Assembly: GCA_945947045.1 (NCBI GenBank)
Contig: CAMEXG010000003.1
Coordinates: 1 to 41,256, forward strand
Direction of reading: 5' to 3'
Length of the DNA stretch: 41,256 nucleotides
Source of the DNA: an uncultured Spirochaetales bacterium
GTDB lineage: Bacteria; Spirochaetota; Spirochaetia; Sphaerochaetales; Sphaerochaetaceae
This document shows, piece by piece, positions 19,224 to 29,286 of the stretch; position 1 is the first letter of the stretch, and every line of letters begins with the position of its first letter. Under the pieces are notes generated by a model that worked only from the letters and a program-made list of their open reading frames with translations, made no database searches and had not been told where the DNA came from. Both the position numbers and the translations under genes were made by a program.

Positions 19224-21026
19224 TTATTCTTTTTTCTGTCCTTGTACTCGCATAACCAACCTATAGGTTACCGATTCATACACCTCTGCTTCAAGAGGGA
19301 AAGTAAAAACAATCTTTCTTCCCAGAGAGAATTCTTCTTCTCCGAGGGCAGTCACTTCCTTAGTCTTTATATTTTCCTCAGTAAGATTAAAGGTTGACGT
19401 ACTGGAAAATATAACCTGAAGATCATCCTCCATTTTTGATGAATACTTTACTGTCTTCGCTCTTACAACACCTTTTGTAACCATGTCCATTCGTTGCTCC
19501 GGACCGGAAATTGAAGCGTCATCCATAGAGAGATATATAACCAAAGAATAATTTCCTTCTATTCTCGATACAGAGTTATTGGTCAAAAGAACATCAAGGA
19601 TAAAGGTTGAGGCCCTCATTTTGTATCTTTTGGATAATAAGAAAGGAAGGGAATCATTTTCAATCAAAAACTCTATTTCACTTCTTTTTTTATCAAGAGG
19701 CTCATAAGAGAACATCTCGTCCTGTGTATCCCATTCATTGTCACCTATTTGGATGATATCCGAAAAAGACTTATTCAAAGAACCCACAGGAATATTCCTA
19801 TCCAAAGGAAGTCTGGAATCGAAGATATTTATTTTCTGAGGAATAAAGTCAAATTCAGGGGATGAAGCACCTTTGGGAGAAATAATGGAAAGATAAGAAT
19901 TGTTTGACATTACAATGTCAGGGCGTTGTATATCTTCCCAATCCAACTCCCTGTATGCAGGAGCCTCAGTGTACTCAATAAAGAAACTTTCAGCTCCAAT
20001 TATGCTTTCCCAGAAGGATCGTCTCGTCCTATAGCGCATAGGAGAGAGCTGGACATCATGAATAAACAAAGGCCCTGTAGCCACATTGAAAAGTGCTGTA
20101 GACACATCTTTCTTCAAGAGTCTGTTTGTTCTGGACTGAGTTCCCTCGGCAAGTGTAATGTATCTGTTATAGAGGTAACGATAACTGTCGTTATAGACTA
20201 AGAGCTCATTAAAGGTAGAGAAAGAATACTTGAGGCCGTCACGTCCATACCATCCCTGAGGAAGATATCCTGGAGTCTGGACAGGAATATCAGAAACAAG
20301 GGTTGAAGGGAATGAAGAGAGAATGTCTATGACCAAGTTTCCTGGCTTTTCACCTTCACCTTCCCTTTCTCTCCCCAATACCAGCTGATCCATATTGAGA
20401 AAGACAGTTCTGTCATGGCTTCCTGTAGAGAGACTAGATAACACTCCTTCTTTTAATTCCTGATACTTGATTTCGCCTTTGCCATAGGCCTCGACTAAAA
20501 GGGAGACACTATCATCTATAGGATATATCCTCTCCTTTCTACCCAGCTCGTTCATCCAGAAAGCCTCTGAATACAAAGCGGAGTCTCCACCTTTGTATGT
20601 CGATATCACCACATTATCTATTCCTGCATTTTTTAAATGAGAAATAAATAGAGGCTGCCAAACCTGACCATAGAAAAAAGCGGTGGTAGGAAGAACGCCA
20701 TATTCATGACGAATAAATGAAGTAAGCCTTTCGATTTGGGAGACTCTGTCCTTCGGTGGGAGAAGAGACAGAATAGATTGGGACCAAGAACCCGTCAAAG
20801 GATCTATCTCCCCCCTTTTGCACAATGTAGCCACCAAAGATCGATATTCAGGTCTTTCCCTCTGAATATGCTTCATCATGTTGGAGGATTGATAGAGGGA
20901 AAGAAAGTGCCCTGGGTTATTGTACATATACGATAGTACAGGCTCATAAACAAGGGCCAACGTCTTATCAAATAAAGACGCTGGAGGAGTTTGTAATTGA
21001 GTATATAAACCCAAGGCTAGTTTCAA
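19224..21026 (-). CDS. Glycoside hydrolase family 57-like (alpha-amylase/4-alpha-glucanotransferase-like) protein
   Basis: N-terminal GH57-like fold features (FLSLYQSSNMM, TGSWSQSILSLLPPKDRVSQIERL) and a C-terminal beta-rich domain. Confidence 0.65.
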   Translation of the reverse strand: MKLALGLYTQLQTPPASLFDKTLALVYEPVLSYMYNNPGHFLSLYQSSNMMKHIQRERPEYRSLVATLCKRGEIDPLTGSWSQSILSLLPPKDRVSQIERLTSFIRHEYGVLPTTAFFYGQVWQPLFISHLKNAGIDNVVISTYKGGDSALYSEAFWMNELGRKERIYPIDDSVSLLVEAYGKGEIKYQELKEGVLSSLSTGSHDRTVFLNMDQLVLGREREGEGEKPGNLVIDILSSFPSTLVSDIPVQTPGYLPQGWYGRDGLKYSFSTFNELLVYNDSYRYLYNRYITLAEGTQSRTNRLLKKDVSTALFNVATGPLFIHDVQLSPMRYRTRRSFWESIIGAESFFIEYTEAPAYRELDWEDIQRPDIVMSNNSYLSIISPKGASSPEFDFIPQKINIFDSRLPLDRNIPVGSLNKSFSDIIQIGDNEWDTQDEMFSYEPLDKKRSEIEFLIENDSLPFLLSKRYKMRASTFILDVLLTNNSVSRIEGNYSLVIYLSMDDASISGPEQRMDMVTKGVVRAKTVKYSSKMEDDLQVIFSSTSTFNLTEENIKTKEVTALGEEEFSLGRKIVFTFPLEAEVYESVTYRLVMRVQGQKKE

Positions 21027-23610: not shown

Positions 23611-24674
23611 GCCTTAGCCCCCTTCTCTTTCTTTGGTGGTTTTACGTAACCGAATTTCTTTGCTTTGCAGAATCTGTCAATGGTAGGAGAAACCATATTC
23701 ATCAACAATATTGCAAGAGAAACCCCTTCCGCCAAGGAGCCGAAGCACCTGATGATAAATGTAAATAAACCACAGCCTACGGCGAATATTATCTCTCCTT
23801 TAGGAGTAGTAGGGGTTGTAACCCAGTCGGTGGCCATAAAGAAGGCTCCAAGCATAAGACCGCCTGAGAGAATAGGAAGAAGGACTTCACCGCTGCAAAG
23901 TCCGTTTCCACCTCTTACTCCACCGAAAACCCACTGTAAAATAGCATAGGAAAGGATATAACAAGTAGGAATTCTCCAAGAGATCACCTTCTTGAAAATC
24001 AAGAAAAGACCGCCTGCGAGCAACAATAGAGCGCTCACTTCCCCGATACAACCACTTGCAAATCCTAAAAATTCGTCGACGACGTAAGGATTTATTCCCA
24101 TTGAAGAGGAAAGAGATGCCGCAATTCCCGACACAGGGACGCCGGAGGCGGAGAGAATAGCTTCCGAACTTAAGCCCGAAGAGATCTCCATTTTGAGAGC
24201 GCTGAGGGGAGTAGCTGAAGAAACAAGTTCTGCAGAACTCTTCAACACCCAAGGGGTGGAAAACTTCGACATCAAGGAAGAGAAAGAGAAGAATACAAAG
24301 ACTCTTCCTGCTATTGCAGGGTTTGCCCAGTTACATCCCAGTCCTCCAAAGGTCCACTTTACAACAAAGATTGCAAAGAGAGACGCCAATACAGGAATCA
24401 AAAGTGGAATTGAAGGAGGCATGTTCATTCCGATCAAAAGCCCTGTGACAAGAGCAGAGTAATCGAGAAGAGTATTCTCCTTATTCATCTTTCCCAAAAG
24501 CCACTCTGTCAAAAGAGATGAAGCGATAGATACCAAAAGGACCAGGACAGCCCTGAAGCCAAACATTACACAACCCCAAAGAGCAGATGGAAGAAGCGCC
24601 ATTACTACATACAGCATCGCCTTATCTGTAGAAATAGAGTCATGGTCGTGTGGACTTGTTCTTACAGTAAGCAT
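23607..24674 (-). CDS. rnfD: Electron transport complex subunit RnfD
   Basis: Multi-TM protein, TDWVTTPTTPKGEIIFAVGCG (FMN-binding threonine motif S/TGATTATP-like), Rnf operon position. Confidence 0.94.
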   Translation of the reverse strand: MLTVRTSPHDHDSISTDKAMLYVVMALLPSALWGCVMFGFRAVLVLLVSIASSLLTEWLLGKMNKENTLLDYSALVTGLLIGMNMPPSIPLLIPVLASLFAIFVVKWTFGGLGCNWANPAIAGRVFVFFSFSSLMSKFSTPWVLKSSAELVSSATPLSALKMEISSGLSSEAILSASGVPVSGIAASLSSSMGINPYVVDEFLGFASGCIGEVSALLLLAGGLFLIFKKVISWRIPTCYILSYAILQWVFGGVRGGNGLCSGEVLLPILSGGLMLGAFFMATDWVTTPTTPKGEIIFAVGCGLFTFIIRCFGSLAEGVSLAILLMNMVSPTIDRFCKAKKFGYVKPPKKEKGAKA

Positions 24675-26002
24675 TATTTTTTCCTCCCCATCTTCTTTCC
24701 AAGTTTAAAGCCCTGGACAAGGTCAATGTGGGATGGACAAGAGAAAGAGCAACATCCGCACTCTTTGCAGTCCATGAGACCCAAGGCCATTGCTTCGGCA
24801 TAGTTGCCGTTCTTAATATTCCTAAACATTCTGTTCGGCATCAATCCCATGGGACAGTGCTGTACGCATTTACCACAGGAGACACAGGGGAAAGTCAGAC
24901 CTTTCTTTTTGTCAGGAAGAGCCAATAGACCGCCACTGCCCTTTACCATAGGAACACTTTCATCGGGGACATCGAATCCCATCATAGGTCCGCCGCTTAC
25001 AAGCTCATAAACTCCGTCTTTCATTCCGCCGCAGTATTCGATGAGGGAAGAGAAGGGAGTTCCGATAGGTGCAAGTATATTCTTAGGCTCGTTGATGCAC
25101 TCGCCGCTGACTGTGATTCTTCTTTCAAAAAGCGGCTTATGATACTTTACAGCCTCAAATATTGCATATGTGGTGGCAGTGTTGCAGACAATACAGCCGA
25201 TATCCAAAGGAAGTTTTCCAGAAGGAATCTCCCTTCCGGTTACAGCCTTCAAAAGCTGTTTCTCGTCTCCTTGGGGATACTTCATCTTCAAGGGCTGGAT
25301 TTCTATAGGGTAACCAAGTTCTTTTGCCCTCTTATCCAGTCTCTCGGCGGCGTCCATCTTGTTCATCTCAATACCGATGACGATTTTTTCCGGCTCGACA
25401 GCCTTCGCCGCAATCATTGCACCTTCCAATAGATCATCTGTATTCTCAAGCATCAAGCGATAGTCACAGGTGATATATGGTTCGCACTCCACGCCGTTTA
25501 TTACAAGGTATTCGACTTTTTTTCCTGTAGGTACAGAAAACTTGACGCTTGTGGGGAATGTAGCTCCACCCATACCGACAATTCCCATTTCCTTTACAAG
25601 TGCCTGAATCTCTTCCTTTGACTGACTTCTCCAATCAAAAGCAGTCTTGAAAGAATCAGGCTGCTCCTGGTCCGGCTTGATGACAAGAGTATCTGCATTG
25701 GCACCCGTAGCCAATCTGACCTTTCTTACATCGACGACACTCCCTGAAACAGGAGAATGCACGTCTGCAGAAATAAAGGATGAAGCCTTTCCGATCACTT
25801 CACCTTTTTCAACCCTGTCCCCTTTTGCCTTTAACGGAGTGGCAGGGGCTCCTAGATGCTGAGACATTGAGACGTATAACTCACCGGGAAGGGGAAGTCT
25901 CTCGACAGCTTTGTCTTTTGTGAGACGCTTCATATCATCCGGATGAACGCCGCCTCTTTTGAAAGTGGCAATATTTAACACAACTGACTCCTTTTTAGTC
26001 AA
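24674..26002 (-). CDS. rnfC: Electron transport complex subunit RnfC
   Basis: FKRGGVHPDDMK, GMGGATFPTSVKF, INGVECEPYITCD, CVSCGKCVQHCPMGLMPN. Confidence 0.95.
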   Translation of the reverse strand: MTKKESVVLNIATFKRGGVHPDDMKRLTKDKAVERLPLPGELYVSMSQHLGAPATPLKAKGDRVEKGEVIGKASSFISADVHSPVSGSVVDVRKVRLATGANADTLVIKPDQEQPDSFKTAFDWRSQSKEEIQALVKEMGIVGMGGATFPTSVKFSVPTGKKVEYLVINGVECEPYITCDYRLMLENTDDLLEGAMIAAKAVEPEKIVIGIEMNKMDAAERLDKRAKELGYPIEIQPLKMKYPQGDEKQLLKAVTGREIPSGKLPLDIGCIVCNTATTYAIFEAVKYHKPLFERRITVSGECINEPKNILAPIGTPFSSLIEYCGGMKDGVYELVSGGPMMGFDVPDESVPMVKGSGGLLALPDKKKGLTFPCVSCGKCVQHCPMGLMPNRMFRNIKNGNYAEAMALGLMDCKECGCCSFSCPSHIDLVQGFKLGKKMGRKK

Positions 26003-26213
26003 CTATCATTTATTGTATGGTAAAATGCAATTCAACGCAAACTAGAAAGTAGTTTACTGATTCTTTTGTATTTATTTGAACAAAAAGGAATTAATTAAAA
26101 AGTTTTATTCGCTAAATCTTTATTTTATTAAAAATCGACAGTACTTTTCATCTTTCCTTGTTTCATTGTCTGTGTTATTCTCAAGTCTGTATAAAAAAGT
26201 AAGGAGAATCGTC

Positions 26214-26273
26214 ATGGACGGAGACCCCGGTAGTACAAAGAAACATATAGTATCCGTCTGGAACATACTCTGA
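26214..26273 (+). CDS. Putative 19-aa leader peptide of mgtE copy 1 (MDGDPGSTKKHIVSVWNIL)
   Basis: SD AAGGAG (26201-26206), 7-nt spacer, ATG GAC GGA GAC CCC...CTC TGA. N-terminus related to the leader ORF before the second mgtE. Confidence 0.75.
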   Translation: MDGDPGSTKKHIVSVWNIL

Positions 26274-26306
26274 CAGTGGACCTGTTCCGACGGATAGGAG
26301 GAACAG
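26251..26306 (+). promoter_or_regulatory. Candidate translational attenuator of mgtE copy 1: mutually exclusive anti-sequestor and SD-sequestor helices
   Basis: Anti-sequestor TATCCGTC(t)GGAACA 26251-26265 with TGTTCCGACGGATA 26283-26296 (14 bp, 1 bulge). Sequestor CTGTTCC 26282-26288 with GGAACAG 26300-26306, covering the last GG of SD AGGAGG (26296-26301) up to the ATG. Confidence 0.7.
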
Positions 26307-27665
26307 ATGACAAAGAAAAAAGAAAAACAGCAGGTAAAACCTGTAGACAAGGTCGTTATCTCTCCATTGGCTTTTAGGAATGAACTTAATAAGCTGTCCA
26401 GAGAGGATTTATTCATTAGAATTTCTAATCTAGATGAAGATGACAGAAAGAAAGCTTGGACTCTTCTAAGCGACGCGAAATGTGCAGAAATAATAGAAGA
26501 CTCAGGATCTCCTGTCGAATGGTTTTTGGAAATGAGTACAAAAAAAGAGAGTGGCGTAATATCTGTAATGGATGAAGAAAAAGCCACGGATCTTCTCTCC
26601 CTATTAGACCAAGAGAAGAGAGTCATGGTGATGGAGATGTCTGGAAAAAGCTTTCAAAAACGCCTGAGATACTCACCAGATGAAGTGGGGTCCATAATGT
26701 CTGAAGACTTCATTCTCTTGGAAAAATCTACAACCGTAAAAGATGCTTTTGAGAAAATCAGGGAAGAAGCAGAAGGGAAAGATAACATAAGGACTATCTT
26801 TCTCACAGATAAGGGAGAAGGGCTCTATGGAGAAGTGGACCTTCTTGATATTCTACGCTCTCCAGGAGACCAGACACTATCTTCTGTAGCCACCACGTCG
26901 TTCCCATATGTCTCGGCAAGTGCAAAGCTTTCAAAGACATTGGAATGGATTAAGGATTACAACCTTTCTTCATTTCCTGTAATCGACGAAGAGGGAAAGA
27001 CAATAGGTGCTGTAACGAGACAGAGTCTTATGGATATTGTCGAGAGGGAGATGGAGGAAGACTACAGAAAGCTCGCTTCTATAGGAGAAGACAAGAATAT
27101 GGGAGTAATATCATCTATGAAGGCTAGACTTCCTTGGCTTTTTATACTGTTGGGCTTAGGAATCATCGTTTCTTCATCCATAGGTTTTCTCTCATCTTTA
27201 GCCATGGGTCTGGCAATGGTTTTCTCTTTCCAGTCTCTTATCCTCGACATGACGGGAAACTCTGGAACTCAGACACTGGCAGTGGCTGTAAGAGCTTTAT
27301 CAGGAAGGGATTTATCCTGGAAGGAGAAGCTGACAATGCTGAAAAAAGAGTCTGCTTCAGGCTTTATTTCAGGTCTAATTCTTGGACTGGGAGCAATATT
27401 GGTACTATTTCCATATATTTTTCTACGTAGTGGTAACGGAGCATTATACTCTTTAGCTCTTTCTGTATGTATCTCTCTTTCCCTAATACTGGCAATGACT
27501 CTTTCAAATACAAGCGGTGCGTTCATTCCTATTGTCATGGAGAAAATCGGTGTGGATCCTGCAGTGGCATCGGGACCACTTATTACTACACTAAGTGACC
27601 TTATAGGAGCCTCTTCATACTACACTCTCGCCTATTTAGTGTTGAAAAAGGTGTTCCACTATTAA
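26307..27665 (+). CDS. mgtE: Magnesium transporter MgtE (copy 1)
   Basis: MgtE N domain, CBS pair, TM domain with LDMTGNSGTQTLAVAVRAL and GVDPAVASGPLITTLSDLIG. Confidence 0.95.
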   Translation: MTKKKEKQQVKPVDKVVISPLAFRNELNKLSREDLFIRISNLDEDDRKKAWTLLSDAKCAEIIEDSGSPVEWFLEMSTKKESGVISVMDEEKATDLLSLLDQEKRVMVMEMSGKSFQKRLRYSPDEVGSIMSEDFILLEKSTTVKDAFEKIREEAEGKDNIRTIFLTDKGEGLYGEVDLLDILRSPGDQTLSSVATTSFPYVSASAKLSKTLEWIKDYNLSSFPVIDEEGKTIGAVTRQSLMDIVEREMEEDYRKLASIGEDKNMGVISSMKARLPWLFILLGLGIIVSSSIGFLSSLAMGLAMVFSFQSLILDMTGNSGTQTLAVAVRALSGRDLSWKEKLTMLKKESASGFISGLILGLGAILVLFPYIFLRSGNGALYSLALSVCISLSLILAMTLSNTSGAFIPIVMEKIGVDPAVASGPLITTLSDLIGASSYYTLAYLVLKKVFHY

Positions 27666-27749
27666 AAATTTAGAAAAAAGTATGGAAAACCTTAGTTGTT
27701 AAGGGTTAATATTTCTTTGGCTCAAGCCAAAAAATTTTAGGAGAAAAGA

Positions 27750-27839
27750 ATGGACGACGGTACTGGAAGTATAGTCAATTTAGGCGGTTCGGACAGCGAA
27801 GTTCCTCTGAGTTTCCGTCGCATTCGACGGCAGAGCTGA
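27750..27839 (+). CDS. Putative 29-aa leader peptide of mgtE copy 2 (MDDGTGSIVNLGGSDSEVPLSFRRIRRQS)
   Basis: SD AGGAG (27739-27743), 6-nt spacer, ATG GAC GAC GGT ACT GGA AGT ATA...AGC TGA. Not in the supplied ORF track because of its length. Confidence 0.75.
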   Translation: MDDGTGSIVNLGGSDSEVPLSFRRIRRQS

Positions 27840-27875
27840 GCAAGATGATCCGCCTCCAAAATCAAATAGGAGGTG
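27782..27875 (+). promoter_or_regulatory. Candidate translational attenuator of mgtE copy 2: multibranch anti-sequestor versus SD-sequestor
   Basis: Anti-sequestor AGGCGG 27782-27787 with CCGCCT 27850-27855, enclosing CTCTG/CAGAG and CCGTCG-catt-CGACGG. Sequestor CGCCTCC 27851-27857 with GGAGGTG 27869-27875, hiding the SD AGGAGGTGA. Confidence 0.7.
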
Positions 27876-27882
27876 ACGAAGA

Positions 27883-29286
27883 ATGGATCCGGAGATTCAG
27901 AGCGGCCAGCATCCTGATTATGTAGGCGAGCTCGTAGAGATAATCAAAAGTAACATCTCACCCATGGCCCTGAAAGAAAAGGTAATGGGTTATCATGAAA
28001 ATGATATTGCAGATGCCATGGACAGGCTTACCCCCGAAGACAGGGGGAAGTTATACCGAATCCTCGACTCTGAAACACTGGCTAATATTTTCGAATACAC
28101 TGAAAACATTTCGACATATCTAAACGAAATCAGTGTAAAGAAAAAAATAGCTGTTCTCAGTGATCTCGAGACAGATAAAGCTACAGAATACCTGAAATCT
28201 CTCCCTAAAGGAGAGAGGACCACTCTCATTGAGTTCATGGATGATGATGCAAGAAAAGACATTGCACTTCTAGCATCCTTCGATGAAGACGAAATCGGCT
28301 CGATCATGAGCACAAACTTCATTGAAATAAAAACCGGAACAAGCATAAAAGAGGCGATGAGGGAGCTTATCGAGCAGGCTGCAGAGAATGATAACATCCA
28401 GACAATTTATGTAGTGGATTCAAACGGCCTTTTTTATGGTGCAATTGATCTAAAAGACCTTATCAGGGCAAGGGAAGGCAACACAATAGATTCTATCGTC
28501 TCTACTTCCTACCCTTATGTGTATGCCCATGAGTTGATTGACGACACCATGAACAAAATCAAGGACTATGCAGAGGACTCTATTCCTGTTCTTGATCAAA
28601 CAAATAAGTTACTTGGTGTAATCACCAGCCAGGATATGGTCGAAGTCATCGACGACTCCATGAAAGACGACTATGCGAAGTTTGCTTCTCTTGGAGATGT
28701 TGAAGACTTAAACGAGACGGTTGGACAGAGTTTGAAAAAACGTCTGCCTTGGCTAACCATCCTGTTGTTCTTGGGTATGCTTGTTTCAACTGTTGTAGGT
28801 CTCTTTGACTTTGTTGCACAGAAGCTCTCGATTCTTATCGCCTTCCAGTCTCTCGTCCTTGGTATGACCGGTAACTCAGGAACCCAGTCCCTTGCCGTTA
28901 CTATCAGAGTCTTGACAGATGAGAACTTGACTACCATGGATAAATTGAAGTTAATGTGGAAAGAAACAAGAATTGGTTTTGGTAATGGCGCCATTCTTGG
29001 CCTTACATCCTTCTTGGTCCTAGGTCTTTACGTATATTTCTTCAAAGACCAAAGTCTTTTGTATTCTTTCAGCGTCTCAGGCTGTACAGCCATCGCTCTT
29101 CTTGTCTCTATGACCATGTCTACTGCAATGGGCACTGTAATTCCTATTTTCTTTAAGAAAATCGGGGTGGATCCCGCAGTGGCATCAGGACCACTTATCA
29201 CCACCGTAAACGACCTTGTGGCTGTCGTTACATACTACGGATTGTCTTATTTGTTACTAATACGGCTAATGGGATTCGGCCTTTAA
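27883..29286 (+). CDS. mgtE: Magnesium transporter MgtE (copy 2)
   Basis: Same domain layout as copy 1; LGMTGNSGTQSLAVTIRVL and GVDPAVASGPLITTVNDLVA. Confidence 0.95.
   Translation: MDPEIQSGQHPDYVGELVEIIKSNISPMALKEKVMGYHENDIADAMDRLTPEDRGKLYRILDSETLANIFEYTENISTYLNEISVKKKIAVLSDLETDKATEYLKSLPKGERTTLIEFMDDDARKDIALLASFDEDEIGSIMSTNFIEIKTGTSIKEAMRELIEQAAENDNIQTIYVVDSNGLFYGAIDLKDLIRAREGNTIDSIVSTSYPYVYAHELIDDTMNKIKDYAEDSIPVLDQTNKLLGVITSQDMVEVIDDSMKDDYAKFASLGDVEDLNETVGQSLKKRLPWLTILLFLGMLVSTVVGLFDFVAQKLSILIAFQSLVLGMTGNSGTQSLAVTIRVLTDENLTTMDKLKLMWKETRIGFGNGAILGLTSFLVLGLYVYFFKDQSLLYSFSVSGCTAIALLVSMTMSTAMGTVIPIFFKKIGVDPAVASGPLITTVNDLVAVVTYYGLSYLLLIRLMGFGL

Follow-up and report, generated by a model that had tools for sequence, protein, structure and literature searches.

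The second gene of a tandem mgtE pair in an uncultured bacterium of the Spirochaetales is preceded by a short leader ORF that, with the RNA pairings around it, likely constitutes a translational attenuator of the Mg2+ transporter gene, sensing Mg2+ via the leader in the manner of Salmonella mgtQ and enteric MgtL. The leader is conserved, recurs before other mgtE genes, before corA and before one mgtA, is accompanied by alternative pairings, and opens and closes the transporter Shine-Dalgarno sequence (SD) statistically in silico. We infer translation of the leader, ribosome drop-off, Mg2+ as the signal and the direction of control; the direction, with drop-off in low Mg2+ switching the transporter on, rests on the mgtQ and MgtL precedents and on the anti-sequestor arms lying beyond the acidic motif. 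The window, meaning the whole stretch of 41,256 nucleotides that was analysed, belongs to an incomplete MAG of 234 contigs.

The two mgtE genes, with leader ORF 2 between them, both encode CBS and MgtE domains, and both copies with both leaders are also found in four other species (Table 1). Neither an intrinsic terminator nor a clear sigma-70 promoter was detected above chance in the leader region. At the curated threshold, Rfam searches of the window and of 40 further mgtE loci matched no riboswitch (the sole hit was one tRNA), and no weak match was credible; the M-box (ykoK) and other Rfam riboswitches were rejected, their covariance models having no match at the loci tested.

Table 1. Leaders, predicted switch elements and transporter genes of the tandem mgtE locus (window coordinates).
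Feature	Position	Strand	Basis or remark
Leader-1 SD, AAGGAG	26201-26206	+	sequence; conserved
Leader ORF 1, MDGDPGSTKKHIVSVWNIL	26214-26273	+	conserved in four other species
Copy-1 anti-sequestor left arm, TCCGTCTGGAAC	26253-26264	+	complementary to 26284-26294
Copy-1 switch strand GTTCCGACGGA, then SD AGGAGG and GGAACAG of mgtE copy 1	26284-26306	+	
mgtE copy 1	26307-27665	+	PF01769, 97.9 bits; TIGR00400, 218 bits, just below the cut-off of 232.75
Hairpin TTTGGC/GCCAAA, between mgtE copy 1 and leader-2 SD	27716-27731	+	conserved in five species
Leader-2 SD, AGGAG	27739-27743	+	sequence; invariant in five species
Leader ORF 2, MDDGTGSIVNLGGSDSEVPLSFRRIRRQS	27750-27839	+	ATG 27750, stop TGA 27837-27839; peptide and codon conservation
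Codon 7 of leader 2, AGT serine	27768-27770	+	near-invariant in leader family
Anti-sequestor left arm AGGCGG, leader codons 11-13	27782-27787	+	pairs with 27850-27855
Inner stem CTCTG/CAGAG	27805-27809/27831-27835	+	located in sequence
Inner hairpin CCGTCG-CATT-CGACGG, inside leader 2	27815-27830	+	CCGTCG 27815-27820, CGACGG 27825-27830
Switch strand CCGCCTCC, common to anti-sequestor and sequestor	27850-27857	+	invariant in five species
Anti-sequestor right arm CCGCCT	27850-27855	+	located in sequence
Sequestor pairing CGCCTCC/GGAGGTG	27851-27857/27869-27875	+	invariant in five species
SD of mgtE copy 2 (AGGAGGTG), sequestor right arm	27868-27875	+	GGAGGTG invariant; buried in MFE fold
mgtE copy 2, MgtE-family Mg2+ transporter	27883-29286	+	TIGR00400, 252 bits, above cut-off; Pfam MgtE_N, CBS, MgtE

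Leader ORF 2 is, judged by its conservation, real and far from a chance ORF. Compared with the window, four related species retain the same amino acid at 19-20 of the first 20 codons. Of the 18-19 leader codons that can be compared, 15-18 are unchanged, whereas in the mgtE gene that follows the figure for identical residues is 49-64%. The last nine codons vary freely among the species, and thus the constraint falls on peptide and RNA in the first two thirds of the leader. Its N-terminus (MDDGTGS) resembles that of the leaders found before other mgtE genes and before corA.

All elements that the preliminary description had listed for copy 2 (SD, ATG, stop, arms and stems) are present as given in Table 1. 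The pairing CGCCTCC/GGAGGTG, which it proposed to bury the SD of mgtE copy 2, is invariant in five species, and the SD is buried in the MFE fold. The AGGCGG/CCGCCT pairing, for which covariation had been suggested as a check, is formed in all five species with one G-U change, but it hardly varies, so that covariation gives it no support. The two inner stems fared differently: CCGTCG-CATT-CGACGG is paired in 90% of cells across the five species, with no covariation, whereas CTCTG/CAGAG is kept in only 72% and its detail is not conserved. Two-sided changes are confined to the small hairpin upstream of the leader-2 SD and one inner pair, among sequences that are few and close. The upstream hairpin carries one compensatory G-C to A-U change and has lost one end pair (five species); the version of one relative is TTAGC/GCTAA. 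The bare fold of the leader-2 region is not unusual (z = -0.77 versus shuffles).

Two fold tests were applied across the leader family: burial of the transporter SD by the leader-transporter gap was compared with shuffled gaps, and opening of the SD upon addition of the leader was compared with shuffled leaders. With P values averaged within clades and 60-100 shuffles per lineage, which makes the combined values approximate, the gap buries the SD for mgtE (P = 0.006, 16 clades) and corA (P = 1e-5, 7 clades), and the leader opens it for mgtE (P = 1e-4, 16 clades) and corA (P = 0.002, 7 clades). At copy 1, the SD is opened by the leader (P = 0.007-0.066 versus shuffled leaders), and the sequestor surpasses all of its 60 shuffles, which puts P at the attainable minimum of 0.016. 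When a ribosome is walked along leader 1, the SD is open with the ribosome at codons 1-5 (1.5-5 kcal/mol to unfold) and closed at codons 9-18 (about 5.5-10 kcal/mol) in five of five species. For corA of two species of the same genus (L146 and L147), the SD is open at codons 1-7 (1-2.6 kcal/mol) and closed at codons 8-21 (mostly 6-12 kcal/mol). The boundary between open and closed lies at or just after the DDG-S or GDPGS motif, as expected if ribosomes lost there spare the anti-sequestor.

Copy 2 is predicted to behave in this way only in nascent transcripts. As long as the transcript ends short of the mgtE SD, AGGCGG/CCGCCT is the dominant fold in all five species. With 3-9 nt of mgtE present, the SD costs approximately 2-5.5 kcal/mol to unfold with the ribosome at codons 1-7 and approximately 6-8.5 kcal/mol at codons 8-17 in four of the five orthologues (the window, G102, G119 and G104); no effect of ribosome position is seen in the fifth (G103). 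With 21 nt of mgtE, the SD of the window's copy 2 stays closed whether the ribosome is at codons 1-15 or absent, and the leader no longer opens it. Once the SD is included, the CGCCTCC/GGAGGTG sequestor is better than the anti-sequestor by 4-7 kcal/mol in every species; thus, a switch at copy 2 would have to be kinetic and decided during transcription. In silico, the choice between alternative folds by the extent of reading is seen for copy 1 and for corA of the same genus, and at copy 2 only for nascent transcripts of four of five species. The preliminary description had proposed that the translated leader decides between the anti-sequestor domain and the SD hairpin, and that the domain, when it stays folded, keeps the SD open: the general logic is well supported by the shuffle tests and by recurrence before mgtE, corA and one mgtA, while at copy 2 itself the second proposal holds only kinetically.

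Most mgtE genes of the window's spirochaete family have a short ORF with a strong SD approximately 90-240 nt upstream. The N-termini of these leaders are acidic and rich in proline or Gly-Ser (DPGS, DDGTGS, DDGGSxxPLP), as in MEAGSSRLFADSDPVPD.., MEEGSSRRSV.., MDNPNGSRSQ.., MKPNDRSSNL.., MESADPGSS.., MDTDPGSC.., MEDPGYPPSR.. and MEAGSSR..DPDPVPD. D, E and P together make up 26-29% of codons 2-16 across the leader family; the copy-2 leader has two Asp and no Pro at its start. A few mgtE genes in other families of the phylum have such leaders (MTDSDGPGSQPP.., MNDSDGPGSSQPP.., MSDSDGGGS.. and MSDSEGDPGP..), and in most other sampled families of the phylum mgtE leaders are absent. A sizeable minority of the family's mgtE genes has no recognisable leader (L007, L010, L014, L078, L079 and L085). 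Other mgtE genes possess the leader, but an SD for mgtE itself is not recognisable ahead of the start codon (L012, L030, L022, L077, L075 and L076); their output may differ from SD sequestration, being coupling or transcription.

One subgroup of corA genes possesses the same type of leader (MDDGSYPLP.., MDEGGSIKPLP.., MSTLDDGGSITPLP.., MSSSDEGGSLRPP.. and MSLSDDGGGSPKP..); some of these genes belong to members of the window's genus that yielded no mgtE (G032, G058 and G044). The window genome's own corA (G000, contig C20) has no leader in front, nor does any of 30 corA genes drawn from other parts of the phylum. Of the two true MgtA-type Mg2+ ATPases, one is preceded by a leader (MDPDGRDS..). 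The locus of this ATPase gene (L222, around 1288-1428) has the leader MDPDGRDSHAWNVLQAHCEQRNDA with a strong SD. For the second true MgtA (L223) no leader is recognisable, and 18 P-type ATPases under the cut-off of the Mg2+ model have no such leader. In a background scan of the sequence retrieved, the motif leader occurred exclusively before mgtE and corA genes and was absent from the 192 remaining genes; the motif was built from the same genes, and the specificity is therefore informative while the exact fraction is not. Matches in a leader-pattern search of the window's own genome were mostly chance occurrences inside genes. The spirochaete leaders were not found in the literature searched and have no Rfam model. 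They probably represent a previously undescribed family of switches located before two, and with mgtA a probable third, unrelated kinds of Mg2+ importer gene.

A serine codon, AGT, is a distinctive feature of the leaders. It occurs in frame within codons 2-16 in 22 of 24 mgtE and 10 of 11 corA leader representatives, with counts by frame of 36:1:4 in mgtE leaders and 14:1:2 in corA leaders; in the corresponding mgtE genes, AGT accounts for 0-31% of Ser codons, mostly 12% or less. The distance from AGT to the start codon varies by whole codons among leaders, and its retention in frame despite this variation supports translation of the leader in that frame. A frameshift at the AGT-AGN motif was rejected on inspection, as several lineages, copy 2 among them, lack the out-of-frame stop.

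According to the proposed mechanism, ribosomes would initiate on leader ORF 2, which has a strong SD for itself. When Mg2+ is low, the acidic start of the peptide, MDDGTGS, would destabilise the ribosome, which would be lost within approximately seven codons; the free AGGCGG of codons 11-13 could then pair with CCGCCT, keeping CCTCC off the mgtE SD and allowing mgtE to be translated. With ample Mg2+, the ribosome would pass codon 8 and melt the anti-sequestor, whereupon CGCCTCC would pair with GGAGGTG and bury the SD. Leader 1 is expected to work in the same way on copy 1 with other arms. By analogy with the enteric systems, importer production is probably raised when ribosomes are unstable in low Mg2+. 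Two acidic residues alone were often insufficient in enteric work (PMC11282234), which counts against MDDGTGS as the destabilising element. A possible refinement, more tentative than the mechanism itself, is that acidic residues do not suffice to set the point of ribosome loss, which would depend on the acidic/Gly-Ser motif in combination with a dedicated AGU serine codon; this would make the leader a spirochaete-specific nascent-chain sensor of Mg2+, placed before the unrelated importers MgtE, CorA and MgtA with RNA switches freshly evolved each time.

The closest known system is mgtQ, a translation-aborting ORF of 8 codons between Salmonella mgtC and mgtB, in which Asp2 and Glu5 destabilise ribosomes and favour a stem that frees the mgtB ribosome-binding site (RBS) (PMC8092293). 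Like mgtQ, the spirochaete leaders are short ORFs with a strong SD and early acidic codons located before Mg2+ transporter genes, and they are predicted to be overlapped by alternative stems, one of which would bury the transporter RBS, with early ribosome loss favouring the open form. Unlike mgtQ, they are found in another phylum before several unrelated transporter genes, MgtE and CorA among them, have a D-P/G-x-S motif with AGT, and are approximately 16-40 codons long. The MgtL peptide of enteric mgtA, in which drop-off at EPDP in low Mg2+ turns mgtA on (PMC11282234), shares with them an ORF with its own SD and an acidic or proline-rich N-terminus before a Mg2+ importer, and some spirochaete leaders contain DPDPVP or MDPD, comparable to EPDP; MgtL acts through Rho-dependent termination, whereas the predicted spirochaete output is access to the SD, and the MDDGTGS of copy 2 lacks proline. 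CorL is a uORF of enteric corA, and its translation and the expression of corA are inversely related (PMC11552253); the spirochaete corA subgroup likewise has a uORF, but CorL has few acidic residues or proline and acts via Rho, whereas the spirochaete corA leaders contain DDGGSxxPLP. The M-box riboswitch also exerts 5'-leader control of Mg2+ transporters and in Mycobacterium is combined with a uORF (PMC12810186), but it is not matched at the spirochaete loci tested. The mgtE motif of Thioalkalivibrio, a riboswitch candidate of one genus without a uORF (PMC11109978), resembles the spirochaete region in being a structured element before mgtE that includes the SD.

Other explanations of the leaders were weighed against attenuation by Mg2+-dependent drop-off. 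A general elongation or codon-specific attenuator, in which ribosomes slow at Pro/Gly or at the AGU serine codon (through EF-P, tRNA-Ser or another stress) without Mg2+ as the direct signal, would account for the near-invariant AGT of the mgtE and corA leaders, which greatly exceeds the codon's share of Ser codons in mgtE genes and which acidic destabilisation leaves unexplained; the enteric leaders mgtM and mgtP read ATP and charged tRNA-Pro (PMC8092293). Such an attenuator is nevertheless unlikely, as the leader is limited, among the genes surveyed, to Mg2+ importer genes of unrelated families, suggesting that Mg2+ is the variable that matters, and the acidic residues are as constant as AGT. 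Control of transcription, with translation of the leader exposing or hiding a Rho-loading site and the SD hairpin secondary, has precedents in MgtL and CorL (PMC11282234, PMC11552253) and would suit several mgtE genes that have a leader but lack a recognisable SD for it to bury (in G020, G037, G026 and G008). We consider it improbable, given the lack of an intrinsic terminator in the region, the SD-burying hairpin that surpasses shuffles over the clades, and leader-mgtE gaps in the window of just 33-43 nt, short for a Rho site.

Direct binding of Mg2+ by the leader RNA, with the ORF incidental, is very improbable: codon-level identity of the leaders is a constraint on RNA too, but the Rfam searches gave no match, AGT stays in frame as its distance from the start shifts, and the peptide motifs are common to mgtE and corA leaders while the RNA arms differ. 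That the ORF is a chance, non-regulatory one or encodes a functional small protein is scarcely credible. The freely varying C-terminal part of the peptide and a whole fold no more stable than shuffles could be cited in its favour, but conservation, gene specificity and recurrence oppose chance, and the variable C-terminus and hydrophilic sequence oppose a small protein.

Ribosome-based sensing of Mg2+ by drop-off leader peptides is known from enteric bacteria. If attenuation by drop-off is correct for the spirochaete leaders, the same logic operates in another phylum and in two or three unrelated transporter families, making it a recurrent way to measure Mg2+, and dozens of natural variants become available for finding the nascent-chain and codon features that destabilise ribosomes. 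Present models of intrinsic ribosome destabilisation do not cover the near-invariant AGU serine codon, which is a specific and testable clue, and the proposed leader switch offers a control mechanism for mgtE loci in which a riboswitch was not found.

Upstream of leader 1, the block ATTCGCTAAATCTTTATTTTATTAAAAA (26107-26135 of the window, approximately 80-110 nt before the leader) is near-identical in five species while its flanks are not, and may serve the mgtE operon as promoter or operator. An RnfC-like gene (24674-26002, minus strand, with Pfam RnfC_N and Complex1_51K domains) lies divergently to the mgtE pair and heads a run of minus-strand ORFs reaching approximately position 21000.
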